From NCBI RefSeq assembly GCF_002216145.1, contig NZ_CP022278.1:806001-870000 (forward strand): 64,000 nt of DNA, given 5' to 3'. The notes under the pieces were generated by a model, which saw only the letters and a list, made by a program, of their open reading frames with translations, was not told the DNA's origin and did not search any database. This document shows positions 37,980 through 44,797 of this stretch, piece after piece (the stretch's first letter is position 1; the number at the start of each line of letters is the position of its first letter). The translations under genes and the position numbers were made by a program. The DNA is from Neisseria chenwenguii (GTDB taxonomy: Bacteria > Pseudomonadota > Gammaproteobacteria > Burkholderiales > Neisseriaceae).

Positions 37980-38561
37980 TCACAACAACCCTATTTCCGC
38001 AAAAAATGCCCCATATGCCGCCGCTTTTTTCTCCAACGCCAGCGGATACGCCCGCGAGGACGACGGCAGGCGGTAGAGGCGCAAATGCCTGTCTGAAAAC
38101 ACCGCCTCCGAGTAAGCGCCGATTTTCGGCTTTGCCGTTTCAGACGGCATCAGCGACAGCAGCGTATCCGTCGCCAGCTCGCCCGTGGTCATCACCGTGC
38201 GGCACAGCGGCATCTTATCCAGCAAAGCCGCCAAATCTACCGCTTCGACAACCTCCAAAAATTTATCCGACGCATTGCCCTGCAACCGCCGCACCCGATA
38301 CGCCGTGTCGTAAACCCCAATCCCCTTATCCGCCAGAAATTCGCGCAACAGCGTTTCCCGAAACGCCTTGCCGCCCTCGGCAACGAAATAATCCTTGTCC
38401 CCGAAAAACACCAACCCGAAAATCCGCCACATATCGTTTTGAAAATTCGGGTAATAAAACTCCATCTTCCAACGCGCGCGCGGCGGCGGGAAAGAACCGA
38501 GCATCAGCAGCTTGGCGTTAGGCGGGGTGAACGGCGGCAAGGGGTGGGTTTCAATAGTCAT
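37980..38561 (-). CDS. DNA-deoxyinosine glycosylase (uracil-DNA glycosylase superfamily)
   Basis: 193 residues. LLMLGSFPPPRARWKMEFYYPNFQNDMW is the family opening, and the C-terminal RLPSSSRAYPL is the second motif. The family removes deaminated bases such as hypoxanthine from DNA. The ATG overlaps the RhuM stop (ATGA), so translation is coupled to it. The gene carries a TG-wadDUS (38086-38097), and a related but diverged copy of its first 25 codons survives at 39651-39728, so this allele is probably imported. Confidence 0.8.
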   Translation of the reverse strand: MTIETHPLPPFTPPNAKLLMLGSFPPPRARWKMEFYYPNFQNDMWRIFGLVFFGDKDYFVAEGGKAFRETLLREFLADKGIGVYDTAYRVRRLQGNASDKFLEVVEAVDLAALLDKMPLCRTVMTTGELATDTLLSLMPSETAKPKIGAYSEAVFSDRHLRLYRLPSSSRAYPLALEKKAAAYGAFFAEIGLL

Positions 38562-39577
38562 TTTTCAGACGGCCTTTCATCGCGATAACGCAGCAGTTCG
38601 GCAATATCCTGCTCTCCCCGTATCTCCCTGATTTGCCGCTGCGCCGCCTGATAGCGTTCATATTCGGCTTCCGCTTTGGCATCAGCCTGCTTTTTACTGA
38701 TTGTTCCTGCACCTTGCAGCACTTCGCGGTCGTTGAATTGCAGAAACTGATCCAGCTTTTCCACCCAATCGCGCAGAAAAACCTGTTTTTTCCGCAGCGC
38801 CTGGTCTTCGGCAAAATCCAGCCACATGGTGACGATGCGGTTTAATTCGCCGATTTCGTTTTCCTGCAAATAATTTTTTGCGGTTTTGATGTCTTTTTTG
38901 CGCACTCCGCCGTCTGCCGTATGGGTCAGCCCCATCAACGGTTTGTCCGCATCGGCACGATGAAACACCAATTCGGCAGCCGTTTGCCCCGTTGCGGCAA
39001 AATGCAGTTTGTTTTGAATCACTTTGAAAAACTGCGTGGTTTCCTTAAAACTCGGCTGATAATCCGCGGCCAGCGCGAAAATTTCCCGCACACGCAGATA
39101 CACCCGCTTTTCGCTGGCACGAATATCGCGGATGCGTTCCAGCAATTCGTCGAAATAATCCGGCGCCGGCACCGTGCCGACCGGCGGATTTTTCAAACGC
39201 TCGTCATCCAGCACAAACCCCTTTTGCAGATACTCGCCCAAAGTGCGCGTTGCCCACTGGCGGAACTGCGTGCCGCGCGTAGAACGGACGCGGTAGCCGA
39301 CGGCGATAATCATCGGAAGCGAATAATGTGCGATTTCACGACTGACTTCGCGACCGCCTTCGTTTTGAACTGTCAACTGAAAGTTGACAGTTGCCGCTTC
39401 AAGCAATTCGCCTTCCGATAAAACAGCGGCAATATGCTTGCTGATGTTCTGTTTGCTGGTCTGATACAGCTCGGCCATTTCCGCCTGCGTAAGCCAAAGC
39501 TGTCCGCCCAGCTCGCGCAAGATAAATTGGGACAGGCCGTCTGAAGTGGTGTAGAGGATTAAGGTGTTGTCAGTCAT
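38558..39577 (-). CDS. rhuM: RhuM family protein
   Basis: 339 residues from MTDNTLILYTTSDG. The region QLWLTQAEMAELYQTSKQNISKHI (about 24-47) looks like a helix-turn-helix. YSLPMIIAVGYRVRSTRGTQFRQWATRTLGEYL is the family hallmark. RhuM proteins occur on pathogenicity islands and mobile elements; their biochemical function is not established. A Kingella-dialect DUS lies just upstream of the start, and the last codons (RPSEK) are themselves a DUS shared with the glycosylase start. Confidence 0.85.
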   Translation of the reverse strand: MTDNTLILYTTSDGLSQFILRELGGQLWLTQAEMAELYQTSKQNISKHIAAVLSEGELLEAATVNFQLTVQNEGGREVSREIAHYSLPMIIAVGYRVRSTRGTQFRQWATRTLGEYLQKGFVLDDERLKNPPVGTVPAPDYFDELLERIRDIRASEKRVYLRVREIFALAADYQPSFKETTQFFKVIQNKLHFAATGQTAAELVFHRADADKPLMGLTHTADGGVRKKDIKTAKNYLQENEIGELNRIVTMWLDFAEDQALRKKQVFLRDWVEKLDQFLQFNDREVLQGAGTISKKQADAKAEAEYERYQAAQRQIREIRGEQDIAELLRYRDERPSEK

Positions 39578-39650
39578 GTTTTTTTCAGGCTGCCTAAATG
39601 TTTGATAAAACAATTTTCTCATACGCAGCTATTTTGTGCTTGGTCTGTAC

Positions 39651-39728
39651 CTACAACTTTGGGAAGAAGCCGAGCATCAGAAGCGTGGCGTTGGACGGGG
39701 GAACGGGGGCAAGGGGGGCGATGGCCAT
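39651..39728 (-). pseudogene. Remnant of a second glycosylase 5' end
   Basis: Reverse-strand ATG with MAIAPLAPVPPSNATLLMLG then FFPKL and a stop. It matches the start of the glycosylase at 38561 (TLLMLGFFP versus KLLMLGSFP). The 20 bases spanning ATG and upstream DUS are identical at 38559-38578 and 39726-39745. The remnant ends abruptly after codon 25. Confidence 0.75.
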
Positions 39729-39750
39729 TTTTCAGACGGCCTTTCGGTAG

Positions 39751-39816
39751 GGTGGGTGTAAGCCCACCATTATTTATCACTTTAATCAACACGGCAGGTT
39801 TACACTTACCCTACTC
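39751..39816. repeat. Repeat with GTAGGGTG-type inverted ends, copy 2
   Basis: GTAGGGTGGGTGTAAGCCCACC at one end, GGTTTACACTTACCCTAC at the other. Similar to 7306-7425. It overlaps the end of the transposase gene. Confidence 0.45.
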
Positions 39817-40323
39817 ATGATAAAGATTCCGCACATTTTCAGACAGGCATCCGCCCCAATCGGCGGGAAACAACCCGTTTTGCACATCGCGGTGGAACGA
39901 AGAATGCGGCCAGTCGCGCACCTGCCGCACCAAGCCGTGTTTTACCGGATTGAAATAAGTATAAAAAACATGACGTTCCAAATCCGCATCGTCACGGATT
40001 TTATGTTCCCAAAACCGCTGCTGCCAAATGCCCGCTTCACGTTTCCCGTTTTGGCTGGCATTCGGACGGCGGCAGCTTTCAGGCAGGCGTTTGGAAAAAT
40101 TGGTTTTCAGAACCTGCACGATACGCGAAAAATCGTTGCGGTTGTCAGGCAGTCGCAGCACCAGATGGAAATGGTCGGGCAGGACGGTAACCGCAACGGT
40201 TTCAAACGGGCAATGCCGCAAAGTTTCCCTATAGGCCTCGCGAAATTCATGGATATACCGCACCAGCCAATCACAACGGCGGTTTTGCAGAACCGCCGTG
40301 ATAAAATTACATAATATATTCCT
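39811..40323 (-). CDS. REP-associated tyrosine transposase (RAYT), 5'-truncated
   Basis: Y1-transposase fold: VLPDHFHLVLRLP holds the HxH metal pair and YFNPVKHGLV the catalytic tyrosine region; WQQRFWEHKIRDD is also typical. From a GTG at 40263 it reads 150 residues. The frame continues upstream as FITAVLQNRRCDWLVRYIHEF, clearly still the domain, but hits a stop at about 40323 before the usual first strand (YRRxxxxGGxYFFT). So the start has been lost at the junction with the rloB 3' end. A TG-wadDUS lies at 39838-39849. Activity is doubtful. Confidence 0.75.
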   Translation of the reverse strand, partial: RNILCNFITAVLQNRRCDWLVRYIHEFREAYRETLRHCPFETVAVTVLPDHFHLVLRLPDNRNDFSRIVQVLKTNFSKRLPESCRRPNASQNGKREAGIWQQRFWEHKIRDDADLERHVFYTYFNPVKHGLVRQVRDWPHSSFHRDVQNGLFPADWGGCLSENVRNLYHE

Positions 40324-40334
40324 TCAAAGAAACC

Positions 40335-40997
40335 TTATTGCTCATTTAAATTCTTTAAACGTTTAACCAGAATATGTACTTGTGTTGAGGGGTTATCAGT
40401 ATTTTCTCTTTCTGTTTCTTTTAATGCTTTTTCCGCATATGCAATTGCATGCATTAGCTGTTTATCTAAATCACTTAAATCTTTAAAAATATCAAATTTT
40501 CCTTTTTCATAATCAGGCAAATACTGTTCTAGATGTTTTATTACTTCTGCCGGTTCCGAGTATGGTTTAGTTGTATATTCAAAATGTAACAATAGCCAAT
40601 ACTCAAAACACGGAACAGATGTTATAGCATGGAAGATATTTTTATCCCTACTGTTTTTCAGCTCATTTATTGCTTCTTGATAGTTTGTATGCCTGTCTTT
40701 ATCAAATACACAATAAACTTCATCAAAGGCATTACCTATGTTTTTTTCCTCTCCAAAACGCTGTTTGGCATACTTCACAATACTTTTAGGATCAGAGCCG
40801 CATTTATCACCACTGATTTCAATATTTGCTGTATGTAAACGATAGTAGCTCCGTATACCGATAAAATAATTCGGTTCAGTTTTTTCTCCTTCACAAACAA
40901 TTAAAATCCGTTTGTATGATTTGCGATCTTTTTGCCGTTTCAGTTCTTTTGTATTTCTAGCTTTTCTCTTCTTTTTAAACAAATCATCGCTACCCAT
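40335..40997 (-). CDS. rloB: RloB family protein (TOPRIM-like nuclease subunit)
   Basis: 220 residues. A lysine-rich N-terminus (1-30) is followed by RILIVCEGEKTEPNYF with Glu36, and VYCVFDKDRH with Asp99 and Asp101: the E...DxD layout of TOPRIM metal sites. SVPCFEYWLLLHFEYTTKPY is a family motif. It is separated from rloA by one base. Paired RloA/RloB proteins were first named beside type I restriction genes and resemble AbiL-type abortive infection and other ATPase-TOPRIM defence pairs; I infer nuclease or toxin action triggered by phage. It is much more AT-rich than its neighbours. Confidence 0.83.
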   Translation of the reverse strand: MGSDDLFKKKRKARNTKELKRQKDRKSYKRILIVCEGEKTEPNYFIGIRSYYRLHTANIEISGDKCGSDPKSIVKYAKQRFGEEKNIGNAFDEVYCVFDKDRHTNYQEAINELKNSRDKNIFHAITSVPCFEYWLLLHFEYTTKPYSEPAEVIKHLEQYLPDYEKGKFDIFKDLSDLDKQLMHAIAYAEKALKETERENTDNPSTQVHILVKRLKNLNEQ

Positions 40998-40998
40998 A

Positions 40999-42258
40999 CT
41001 ATCTCCCTAAATCAAAAGCATGGATAAACGGTAGTGCCCCATATCGACCGGATAAATAACCTGCTTCCAAGTTTTCTTTTCCCTTTTTGGGACTGAAATC
41101 TGATAAAGGATAAAGGATAGAGGACTGTTTATTATCTCTTTCACAAAACCAAATTTGATCGCGACGGAAAACGTTTTGATTCAAAATGGATGTTTCATGC
41201 GTGGTAAAAATTAATTGGGCATTTTTCGGATTGCTGGCTTGGTCATGGAATAACTCAACCAAAAACTGAACCAGTTTAGGATGCATATTCACATTCAGTT
41301 CATCAATACATAGTGTATAACCGTTTTCCAATACATCTAAAATCGGACCAACAAATGAAAAGAATTTTTGAGTGCCATCTGATTCATCATTGAAATCAAA
41401 ATTCACCTCACTCCCATCATTATCGTAATGAACAGTTTTTAATTTAAGGTGTTTAATATCTTTCAATTTTTCAAACAAATGATTTTTCAATGTTTCAGGC
41501 ATATCCTCAGGAAAAAAAGAAGGATCAAAATCTTCTGTTTCTACGTTAATATTGTGAATATTAAAATCTGCAGCTTTTAACAGCTTAATCACTTTTTCTT
41601 TTTTACCTTCATTACATTGATGAGCAGTATATTCAGGTCCAAATCCATCAACTCCACTAAATAGTAGGTTATTATCGAACCAATCAAATAGCGGCTTTAA
41701 CTGCTCGCTATTTAACTGAACTGCTGTTGATAAAAATAAGGCATTATCTCTAGTCGCTTGCTGCCAAACCTGTTTCGTACCTAAGAGAAAAGAACTGAAC
41801 TTCCAATGATATTTTTTTTCTTCATCATCCCACACCCGTTCAAACCATTTTTGGGAATGGCCTTTAGGGTACGCAAACAGCCATTCATCAAAAATCTGTG
41901 TTTCGGTTGCACTAAACCCATATTGATAGCGAATATTTTGAACAATAAAAGTAATCTCGAATTCTGTGGGTTCAGTTAGATAAGCTTTATCTAATTTAAA
42001 CGGAATGAGCGGCAGTTTGTCTCCACGTTGAGAAGTATTGGTAACAATACGTTTCATTGTTTTTAATGCTTTGAGGAAATTAGATTTTCCACTTGCATTT
42101 GCGCCATAAATTGCTGATGTTTTCAACAGTTCCAGTCCCTTAATACTTTCAATACGGAAAGTATTACTTGGCTGTTCATCACCTTTTGTTTTTACCATAC
42201 TGAAATTTTGTTGTTCACGGAAAGAACGGTAGTTACTCACAGCGAAGTCAATAAGCAT
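40999..42258 (-). CDS. rloA: RloA-type AAA ATPase
   Basis: 419 residues, SMC/OLD-like ATPase (AAA15/21). FAVSNYRSFREQQNFSM is the typical opening, Walker A is YGANASGKSN (51-60), a signature-like SDGTQKFFSF is at 293-302, Walker B YTLCIDE at 314-320 and the H-loop TTHE at 352-355. It is expected to sense infection and hold or activate RloB. The ribosome site (AAGGG) six bases before the ATG lies inside a 24-bp hairpin. Low GC and the foreign uptake sequences nearby mark it as acquired. Confidence 0.85.
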   Translation of the reverse strand: MLIDFAVSNYRSFREQQNFSMVKTKGDEQPSNTFRIESIKGLELLKTSAIYGANASGKSNFLKALKTMKRIVTNTSQRGDKLPLIPFKLDKAYLTEPTEFEITFIVQNIRYQYGFSATETQIFDEWLFAYPKGHSQKWFERVWDDEEKKYHWKFSSFLLGTKQVWQQATRDNALFLSTAVQLNSEQLKPLFDWFDNNLLFSGVDGFGPEYTAHQCNEGKKEKVIKLLKAADFNIHNINVETEDFDPSFFPEDMPETLKNHLFEKLKDIKHLKLKTVHYDNDGSEVNFDFNDESDGTQKFFSFVGPILDVLENGYTLCIDELNVNMHPKLVQFLVELFHDQASNPKNAQLIFTTHETSILNQNVFRRDQIWFCERDNKQSSILYPLSDFSPKKGKENLEAGYLSGRYGALPFIHAFDLGR

Positions 42259-42511: not shown

Positions 42512-44797
42512 TTACTTTTTCAACCTCGCAAACGCATCCGCCATCGCGGTATTGCCCACGTTTTTTTCCCTTTGCCCTTTATCTTTCAGGCTGCCTGAAC
42601 GGTTGTTTCTCGCGGCGTTTTCAGACGGCCTGCCGTTTTTTGGCGAACCGCTGTCTGCGTCGTCGTTCAGGCGCATGGTCAGCGCGATGCGTTTTCTCGC
42701 GGCATCGACTTCCAGCACTTTCACTTTTACCACATCGCCGGCTTTGACGATTTCGCGCGGGTCTTGCACGAATTTGTCGGCGAGCGCGGAGATGTGGACG
42801 AGGCCGTCCTGATGCACGCCGATGTCCACGAATGCGCCGAAGTTGGCGACGTTGGAGACGACGCCTTCCAGTATCATGCCTGCCTGTAAATCGCTGATTT
42901 CGTTGATGCCTTCGGCGAATGAAGCCGTCTGAAATTCGCCGCGCGGGTCGCGGCCGGGTTTTTCCAGTTCGGCGAGGATGTCCATGATGGTGGGCAGGCC
43001 GAATTGGTCGGTGGTGTAGGCGGCGGGTTTGATTTGGCGGATTTTGTCGCGATTGCCGATGAGGTCGGCGGCACTGATGTGCAGGTCGTCGAGCATTTTG
43101 GCGACGATGGGGTAGGCTTCGGGGTGTACGGCGCTGGCGTCGAGCGGTTCTTTGCCGCCGTTGATGCGCAAAAATCCGGCGGCCTGCTCGTAGGTTTTTT
43201 CACCGAGGCGCGGCACTTTGAGGAGTTTGCGGCGGCTGTCGAACGCGCCGTTTTCGTCGCGGTAGGCGACGATGTTTTGCGCCAAGGTGCTGTTTAGGCC
43301 TGAAATTCTGGCGAGCAGCGGCGCGGAGGCGGTGTTCACATCCACGCCGACGGCGTTCACGCAGTCTTCCACCACGGCATCGAGCGATTTGGCGAGCTGG
43401 GTTTGGTTGACGTCGTGCTGGTACTGGCCAACGCCGATGGATTTGGGGTCGATTTTCACGAGTTCGGCGAGCGGGTCTTGCAGGCGGCGGGCGATGGAAA
43501 CCGCGCCGCGCAAGCTGACGTCGAGTTCGGGAAATTCTTTGGCGGCCAGTTCGCTGGCGGAATAGACGGATGCGCCGGCTTCGGAGACGACGATTTTGTG
43601 CAAGCCCGCTTCCGGCAGGCCTTTGATGAGTTCGCCCGCCAGTTTGTCGGTTTCGCGGCTGGCGGTGCCGTTGCCGATGGCAATCAGTTTGATGCCGTAT
43701 TTTTTCACGAGGGCTGCGAGCGTTGCCAAGGCGTTGTTTTCCTGATGTAAATAGACGACGGCGGTGTCGAGCAGCTTGCCGGTGTCGTCCACCACGGCGG
43801 TTTTGATGCCGGTGCGGTAGCCGGGGTCGAGGCCGAGGGTGGGCAGGCGGCCGGCGGGCGCGGCAAGCAGCAGGTCTTTGAGATTGCGTGCAAACACAGT
43901 AATTGCGTCGCTGTCGGCGTTTTCTTTCAGACGGCCCAAGGCGTCGAGTTCGAGCGATAGGAAGATTTTCGCCCGCCAGGTCAGGCGCACAGTGTCGCGC
44001 AGCCATTTGTGGCCGTCTGAAATCTTGAAATGCGCGGCGATGATTTTTTCATACGCGCTTTGCTCGGTAACCAGCGTTTCATCCGGCTGGTATTTGAGCG
44101 CGACGGTCAGCACGCCTTCGTTGCGGCCGCGCAAAACCGCCAGCGCGCGGTGGCTGGGCATGGTGCGCACGGGTTCGCGGTGGTCGAAATAATCCTTGAA
44201 TTTTTCGCCGTCTTTTTCTTTGCCTTCAAGCACTTGCGCATGGACTTCCGCTTCCGCCCACAGCTTGTCGCGCAGACGGCCGATGAGTTCGGCATCCTCG
44301 GCAAACTGTTCCATCAGAATCGCGCGCGCGCCGTCCAGCGCGGCTTTGCTATCAGGCACCTGCTCATTCAGGTAGGCATTTGCGGCGGTTTCCGGGTCTT
44401 GCGACTGGTCAGCTAGCAGCACGTCGGCAAGCGGCTGCAAACCGTTTTCGCGCGCGATTTGCGCTTTGGTGCGGCGTTTGGGTTTGTAGGGCAGATATAA
44501 ATCTTCCAGCGCGGTTTTGTTGTCGCAGGCTTCGATTTGCTCGCGCAGGCCGTCTGAAAGTTTGCCTTGCTCTTCAATGCTTTTCAGCACGGTGGCTTTG
44601 CGTTCTTCCAGTTCGCGCAGGTATTGCAGACGCTCGGCCAGCGTGCGCAGCTGCGTATCGTCCAGCCCGCCCGTGGCTTCTTTGCGGTAGCGGGCGATAA
44701 ACGGCACGGTTGCGCCCTCGTCGAGCAAATCGACGGCGGCTTGGATTTGGGAAACGGTGGCGGAGAGTTCGGAGGCGATGATTCGGGTGATGTTCAT
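42512..44797 (-). CDS. tex: Tex family transcription accessory protein
   Basis: 761 residues. The N-terminal helical part starts [20 protein letters not shown], then a YqgF-like domain ([17 protein letters not shown]), helix-hairpin-helix repeats and a C-terminal S1 RNA-binding domain ([21 protein letters not shown]). Tex binds nucleic acid and affects transcription of toxins and virulence genes in other bacteria. The tail after the S1 domain is partly encoded by uptake sequences: GRPSENAA by a DUS and [10 protein letters not shown] by the overlapping Kingella/Simonsiella forms at 42585-42599. Confidence 0.93.

Follow-up and report, generated by a model that had tools for sequence, protein, structure and literature searches.

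The interval between Tex and a DNA glycosylase gene in Neisseria chenwenguii was, on balance, probably assembled by the stacking of two alternative fillings of a single slot, AbiLi-RloB and RhuM, through an illegitimate join that left a stub of the glycosylase 5' end behind. This is the most economical account of the locus, which can be read as a trace of the way defence genes accumulate in a naturally transformable genus. Throughout, the window is the whole stretch of DNA analysed (64,000 nucleotides), and comparisons within the genus cover 46 genomes, including that of the window itself (G000).

On the minus strand, the order is Tex, AbiLi ATPase, RloB/AbiLii partner, RAYT, REP-like palindrome, DUS-ATG-stub, a leader of 73 bases, RhuM, DUS-ATG-intact glycosylase and putative fabI, the last named by eye (Table 1). 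The AbiLi and AbiLii-type genes are adjacent (40335-42258) and match both PADLOC profiles of the AbiL system; this pair is a candidate AbiL abortive infection system. RhuM matches PF13310 over its full length (367.7 bits against a gathering cut-off of 33.7; profile positions 2-250 of 252) and differs from the known family in having a C terminus encoded by DUS codons that overlaps the glycosylase start. Its true start is probably the ATG at 39577 rather than 39622, because 21 homologues begin at or near the matching place. The score of the intact glycosylase against the DNA-deoxyinosine glycosylase model TIGR04274 is under the curated cut-off of 80, and the protein has no Pfam family at 0.001. 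A second glycosylase, of the other neisserial clade (about 55%), is encoded in the same genome beside a putative recA (L068 1853-2440; G000 C1:371858-372427).

Table 1. Features of the Tex-glycosylase interval, in window coordinates
Feature	Position	Strand	Evidence or remark
Tex	42512..44797	-	Pfam Tex domains; conserved upstream border of variable slot
AbiLi-type AAA ATPase	40999..42258	-	PADLOC AbiLi 7.6e-104
RloB / AbiLii-type partner	40335..40997	-	Pfam RloB 4.6e-47; PADLOC AbiLii 8.9e-33
REP-associated tyrosine transposase (RAYT)	39811..40263	-	NCBIfam NF047646, 134.8 bits (cut-off 80)
REP-like palindromic repeat, adjoining the stub's DUS on its upstream side	39746..39771		similar sequence at scattered sites in G000 and other genomes
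Repeat copy 2 (DUS and ATG of stub)	39726..39745	-	exact 20-base identity
Glycosylase 5' stub (ATG, 25 codons, stop)	39651..39728	-	homologous to about stub codon 23; homologous stub in G017
Leader, stub to RhuM start	39578..39650	-	long match in G017 only (among 46 genomes)
RhuM, probable start; frame open from 39622	38558..39577	-	Pfam PF13310 3.4e-110; PADLOC PDC-S05 9e-154
Repeat copy 1 (DUS encoding RhuM's last residues, overlapping glycosylase ATG)	38559..38578	-	exact 20-base identity
Intact clade-A DNA glycosylase	37980..38561	-	TIGR04274, 36.5 bits

A glycosylase start present twice

The first-pass annotation had drawn attention to 20 bases, spanning the glycosylase ATG and its upstream DUS, that are identical in the two repeat copies. 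The coordinates are exact, and on either side the identity stops at the very next base. As evidence of a splice, the identity was nevertheless rejected: the window contains 136 DUS, and 6 of their 9180 pairs, the stub/intact pair among them, share at least 20 bases. Where DUS are so dense, a shared one is weak evidence of a splice. It was also correctly observed that the last codons of RhuM are the DUS; DUS codons encode the ...RPSEK end of the protein, whose TGA stop (38558-38560) shares bases with the glycosylase ATG (38559-38561).

The stub itself is more than a chance resemblance. It reads MAIAPLAPVPPSNATLLMLGFFPKL and then stops, and the intact gene reads MTIETHPLPPFTPPNAKLLMLGSFP. Beyond the ATG, the stub aligns with the glycosylase start with a score of 70, a value reached by none of 2000 dinucleotide shuffles (maximum, 37), and the best score against it elsewhere in the window is 26. 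The claim that a diverged glycosylase N terminus of 25 codons lies beyond the second repeat, with homology past the DUS and ATG, is thus borne out. Homology stops at about stub codon 23, corresponding to intact codon 25, and the last two residues and the stop fall in unrelated sequence. About 90 bp of the glycosylase 5' end are present twice, and in the window the two copies share their 5' context. The stub is a dead relic of this 5' end, best explained by recombination.

The cut-off end of the stub is the end far from the DUS, so that recombination at the DUS cannot alone have made that break. The earlier proposal of a cassette recombined at the DUS stands in part: a dead 5' end does adjoin RhuM, and a DUS does sit at the RhuM-glycosylase join, but a DUS crossover leaves the far-end break unaccounted for.

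An insertion of RhuM into the native glycosylase start, with duplication of a target of about 90 bp (DUS to codon 25), would make both copies native and could have proceeded by single-crossover integration of a circle or by staggered repair. RhuM does lie exactly between the two copies, whose DUS-ATG context is common to both, and in a hand-made alignment the best match of the window stub is its own intact copy, by the small margin of 56/68 columns against 53/68 for the next; in an alternative alignment, its own copy ties with four others. Against this, RhuM already adjoins the glycosylase in genomes in which the search revealed no stub, the left end of the supposed insert is a leader with no long counterpart among the 46 genomes but in G017, and the proteins scanned between Tex and the glycosylase include no integrase and one RAYT. 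We consider such an insertion unlikely. Carriage or copying of the glycosylase 5' end to its present place by the RAYT/REP unit appears very improbable: the REP-like palindrome ends where the DUS-side homology of the stub begins, but to our knowledge RAYTs move short REP/REPIN elements and not flanking pieces of genes.

The leader between stub and RhuM matches G017 at 94% over 80 bp; the other matches among the 46 genomes are weak and of 19-45 bp, and no source for it was found in them beyond G017. The RhuM-glycosylase join varies. In G060, the two genes overlap by ATGA and there is no DUS, and in G017 and G061 they are separated by a spacer of roughly 90 bp. The DUS-coded ERPSEK end occurs in 5 RhuM proteins among 120 homologues listed, one of them (P0004) from Neisseria sp. 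CCUG12390, indicating that the DUS-tail join is an established allele.

The Tex-glycosylase slot across Neisseria

All 46 genus genomes gave a Tex match, in some cases a partial or broken one. The neisserial glycosylases fall into two clades, A with 66-83% identity to that of the window (one piece of a broken copy, at 53%, being the exception) and B with 50-55%. Clade A is present in 23 of the 46 genomes, the window's own included, and five carry both clades (G000, G002, G015, G060 and G064). The clade-A glycosylase lies downstream of Tex, on the same strand and within about 12 kb, in 15 of the 23; in five it is not linked to Tex (G022, G035, G001, G024 and G068), and three (G016, G019 and G021) were left out of the order count, Tex being absent or partial on other contigs. 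The downstream border of the slot is thus conserved only in part of the genus. Two genomes enter the slot count and not the glycosylase trees or identity counts: G064, whose broken glycosylase follows Tex at a distance of about 9 kb, and G068, whose glycosylase is off the Tex contig.

RhuM is found between Tex and the glycosylase in nine of the 15 Tex-linked genomes. It stands directly before the clade-A glycosylase in five (G000, G017, G060, G061 and G065), being broken or degenerate in G017, G061 and G065, and about 7 kb from it in the other four (G030, G005, G018 and G067), in every case downstream of Tex. RhuM in this position is an old arrangement. The first-pass annotation had envisaged an imported RhuM-glycosylase cassette, and the occurrence of RhuM there in 9/23 clade-A genomes speaks against a recent import of that kind. 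The link was seen in 3 of the best 80 of 535 confirmed glycosylase loci (each of at most about 20 kb), all three labelled Neisseria; none was found outside Neisseria in that set.

The 7 kb between RhuM and glycosylase in G030, G005 and G018 are occupied by a block of metabolic genes (L054 3650-10280 and matching places in L055 and L057), in which dehydrogenases, a transporter and an IclR-type regulator were recognized by eye. The spacing in G067 is similar, and its regulator and transporter clusters are common with this block.

Slot proteins were scanned in 11 genomes, among them G035 and G068, which lack a linked glycosylase; the cargo of G065, G030 and G064 was left out. N6-methylases of type I or Eco57I kind were found in G035, G067, G068, G005 and G069, SIR2-like and PDC-S25 proteins in G060, a Fic protein in G061, a cytosine methylase and one further protein without a Pfam match in G002, an adenine methylase in pieces in G015, Cas9 (PADLOC) in G013 and an 851-residue protein with no PADLOC match in G006. 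The first slot protein of G018 clusters with the SIR2 protein of G060. By eye, putative Cas1 and Cas2 and a repeat array stand alongside Cas9 in G013 (L059, L173). The best reading of these gene contents is that the Tex-glycosylase interval holds exchangeable cassettes, often apparently of defence type.

The order Tex, cargo, glycosylase was also seen in two contigs labelled Cardiobacteriaceae, L080 and L082, whose 5 and 21 kb contain no neisserial DUS (L082 6429-10573 and L080: Tex 85%, a cargo gene, clade-A glycosylase 76%). These represent either cross-family transfer or misbinned contigs. The DUS 10-mer is likewise absent from L079 and L085, which are labelled Neisseria, and its absence is therefore no proof of another family.

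Origin of the stub and the mosaic of G017

Beyond ordinary gene starts, DUS and repeats, a stub-like match occurs among the matches listed for the other 45 genus genomes only in G017, at 81% over 282 bp. The gene order of G017 is that of the window, with RhuM broken and the RAYT reduced to a C-terminal remnant of ~34 residues. The two stubs have the same junction to the RhuM leader and share an overlapping deletion of 5-7 bases, of ambiguous placement, relative to 20 aligned intact genes. G017 is also the only other genome of the 46 with a close AbiLi (an 86% homologue), so that the stub is limited to the two genomes that carry the AbiLi block.

Searching the 46 genomes revealed distant AbiLi relatives (43-66%) in G030, G007, G066 and G025. 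In stretches of 5.8-8.5 kb, their AbiLi-RloB loci contain no glycosylase or RhuM match, and what resembles the stub stretch there is short and DUS-like; they were rejected as donors.

The clearest evidence on which copy is native comes from the mosaic structure of G017. Numbered as in the window, its RhuM is 99% identical to that of the window at 39565-39491, where the other eight genomes reach 46-81%. The next segment (39490-39266) is closest to G005 (73-81%), window-like and clade-like sequence are indistinguishable at 39265-39117, and the remainder (39116-38596) is 82-98% identical to G030, G005 and G018 and 73-87% to the window. The intact glycosylase of G017 groups in the tree with its own Tex clade (G061, G018, G005, G030 and G067). 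On sequence affinity, then, the upstream block next to the stub appears to be the import in G017, and the 3' part of RhuM and the glycosylase appear to be native. With a window-like leader and RhuM 5' part followed by a clade-like RhuM 3' part and glycosylase, the stub there seems to have come with the upstream block. This speaks against the earlier view of a native stub and a foreign intact gene. In G017, a single switch lies within RhuM, and identity rises abruptly at the start of AbiLi. The blocks of G000 and G017 resemble each other unevenly (65-98% identity per 100-base segment, gapped stretches set aside), from which it follows that the block is not young and has been exchanged more than once.

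On that earlier view, recombination at the DUS brought in a RhuM-glycosylase cassette from elsewhere, which took the place of the native glycosylase and left the 5' end of that gene as the stub. It is not without support. A DUS does sit at the RhuM-glycosylase join, G006 has a DUS at its glycosylase ATG and no RhuM, and a model of the same shape has been published for meningococcal galE2. Its own suggested check was that the stub should match relatives better than the intact copy does. Counted on shared columns for 20 aligned relatives of 22, this expectation failed: 16/20 are closer to the intact copy and four to the stub, the latter by one base each. Without the first nine variable columns, 16/20 favour the intact copy and four tie, and in the alternative alignment all 20 favour it. 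When the G017 stub is compared instead, each of the three versions places 20/20 relatives nearer to the window's intact copy than to that stub. With a stub so short (about 70 bp) and decayed, the power of the test is low. The glycosylase and Tex of the window lie on their own branches with no well-supported partner, and the intact glycosylase shows no sign of being foreign. Add to this the reversed polarity in G017, the wide occurrence of RhuM adjoining the glycosylase and a broken end of the stub that is not at the DUS, and displacement of the native gene seems decidedly unlikely.

Approximately unbiased (AU) tests bear on the same question as supporting evidence only, because the tree placement of the stubs is unstable. 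Placing the G017 stub with its own clade is rejected (p 0.007; 0.027 without the first nine columns), a result that softens with the alternative stub alignment (p 0.07-0.09), and a tree that holds both stubs with the G017 clade passes (p 0.25). Dropping the first nine columns also tells against pairing the two stubs (p 0.047) and against joining the window stub to its own gene (p 0.032). As to descent of the stub from the recipient's native allele, the window shows no decisive affinity; in G017 such descent is disfavoured by the main alignment and not by the alternative one.

Proposed stacking of cassettes, and known systems

Under the stacking of two fillings, one ancestral allele of the slot would have carried AbiLi-RloB(-RAYT) and, immediately after it, a glycosylase whose ATG adjoins a DUS; the other would have carried RhuM followed by a glycosylase. 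The two would have been joined in tandem between Tex and a clade-A glycosylase, with one junction illegitimate: there, one allele's glycosylase, broken off near codon 25, would have been fused to the other allele's RhuM leader. The product would be Tex-AbiLi-RloB-RAYT-[DUS-ATG-stub]-RhuM-[DUS-ATG-glycosylase], and the assembled block would later have been exchanged, in G017 through an import ending inside RhuM, with transformation as the presumed route. Several considerations count against stacking: no Tex-AbiLi-glycosylase allele without RhuM was found in the genus genomes, the AU rejections soften with the alternative alignment, the short and decayed stub prefers the window's own intact copy by a narrow margin, the uneven identity of the G000 and G017 blocks points to more than one exchange, and a local duplication of the glycosylase 5' end would leave a similar trace.

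The locus fits known kinds of arrangement, to which two stacked cassettes with a 5' stub between them would add modestly. A close parallel is the galE2 remnant of the meningococcus. In the meningococcal cps island, which carries tex, an intact galE1 and a truncated galE2 flank acquired genes, and illegitimate recombination has been proposed (PMC5349592). The likeness lies in an intact and a truncated gene copy around acquired genes, with Tex nearby. What survives of galE2, however, is the 3' part, which is akin to the allele of the recipient, whereas a 5' stub and defence-like cargo are found here, and the stub of G017 seems to have come with the import. The minimal mobile elements of Neisseria are conserved gene pairs between which alternative whole-gene cassettes are exchanged by homologous recombination (PMC3082526). 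The Tex-glycosylase slot resembles them in its conserved border genes and differing cassettes; they vary between strains, whereas the cargo differences seen here are between species, and, unlike in those elements, two cassettes are here stacked by a seemingly illegitimate join. There is also a precedent for methylase remnants beside tex, region E of the meningococcal capsule locus containing tex and two pseudo cytosine methyltransferases (PMC6202450). In the passages of that source on which we draw, the methyltransferases are treated as part of the capsule locus, and neither a glycosylase nor RhuM appears.

Literature searches on the Tex slot, minimal mobile elements, RhuM, DUS with illegitimate recombination, and AbiL with RloB turned up no description of the slot; the principal catalogue of such elements lay outside the search, and absence from print is not claimed.

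What lends the slot its wider interest is the range of genes that alternate there, downstream of Tex: methylases, restriction-type genes, Cas9, SIR2, Fic, AbiL and RhuM. Tex itself lies in the meningococcal capsule island. We offer tentatively, as a possibility short of probable, that the interval has long served as a defence slot across much of Neisseria, and maybe also in relatives outside the genus that lack DUS, and that competing immune cassettes there may be stacked as well as swapped through crossovers in DUS and gene starts, and that such events may also make new gene ends, like the DUS tail of RhuM that overlaps the glycosylase ATG.

RhuM itself also varies. A short N-terminal module (window 39308-39445; residues 45-90) swaps between a few allele types: in three homologues (P0003, P0004 and P0008), 231-235 of the 241 residues that follow the module are those of the window's RhuM, against 23-25 of 46 within it, a pattern in the protein alignments that looks like specificity switching.
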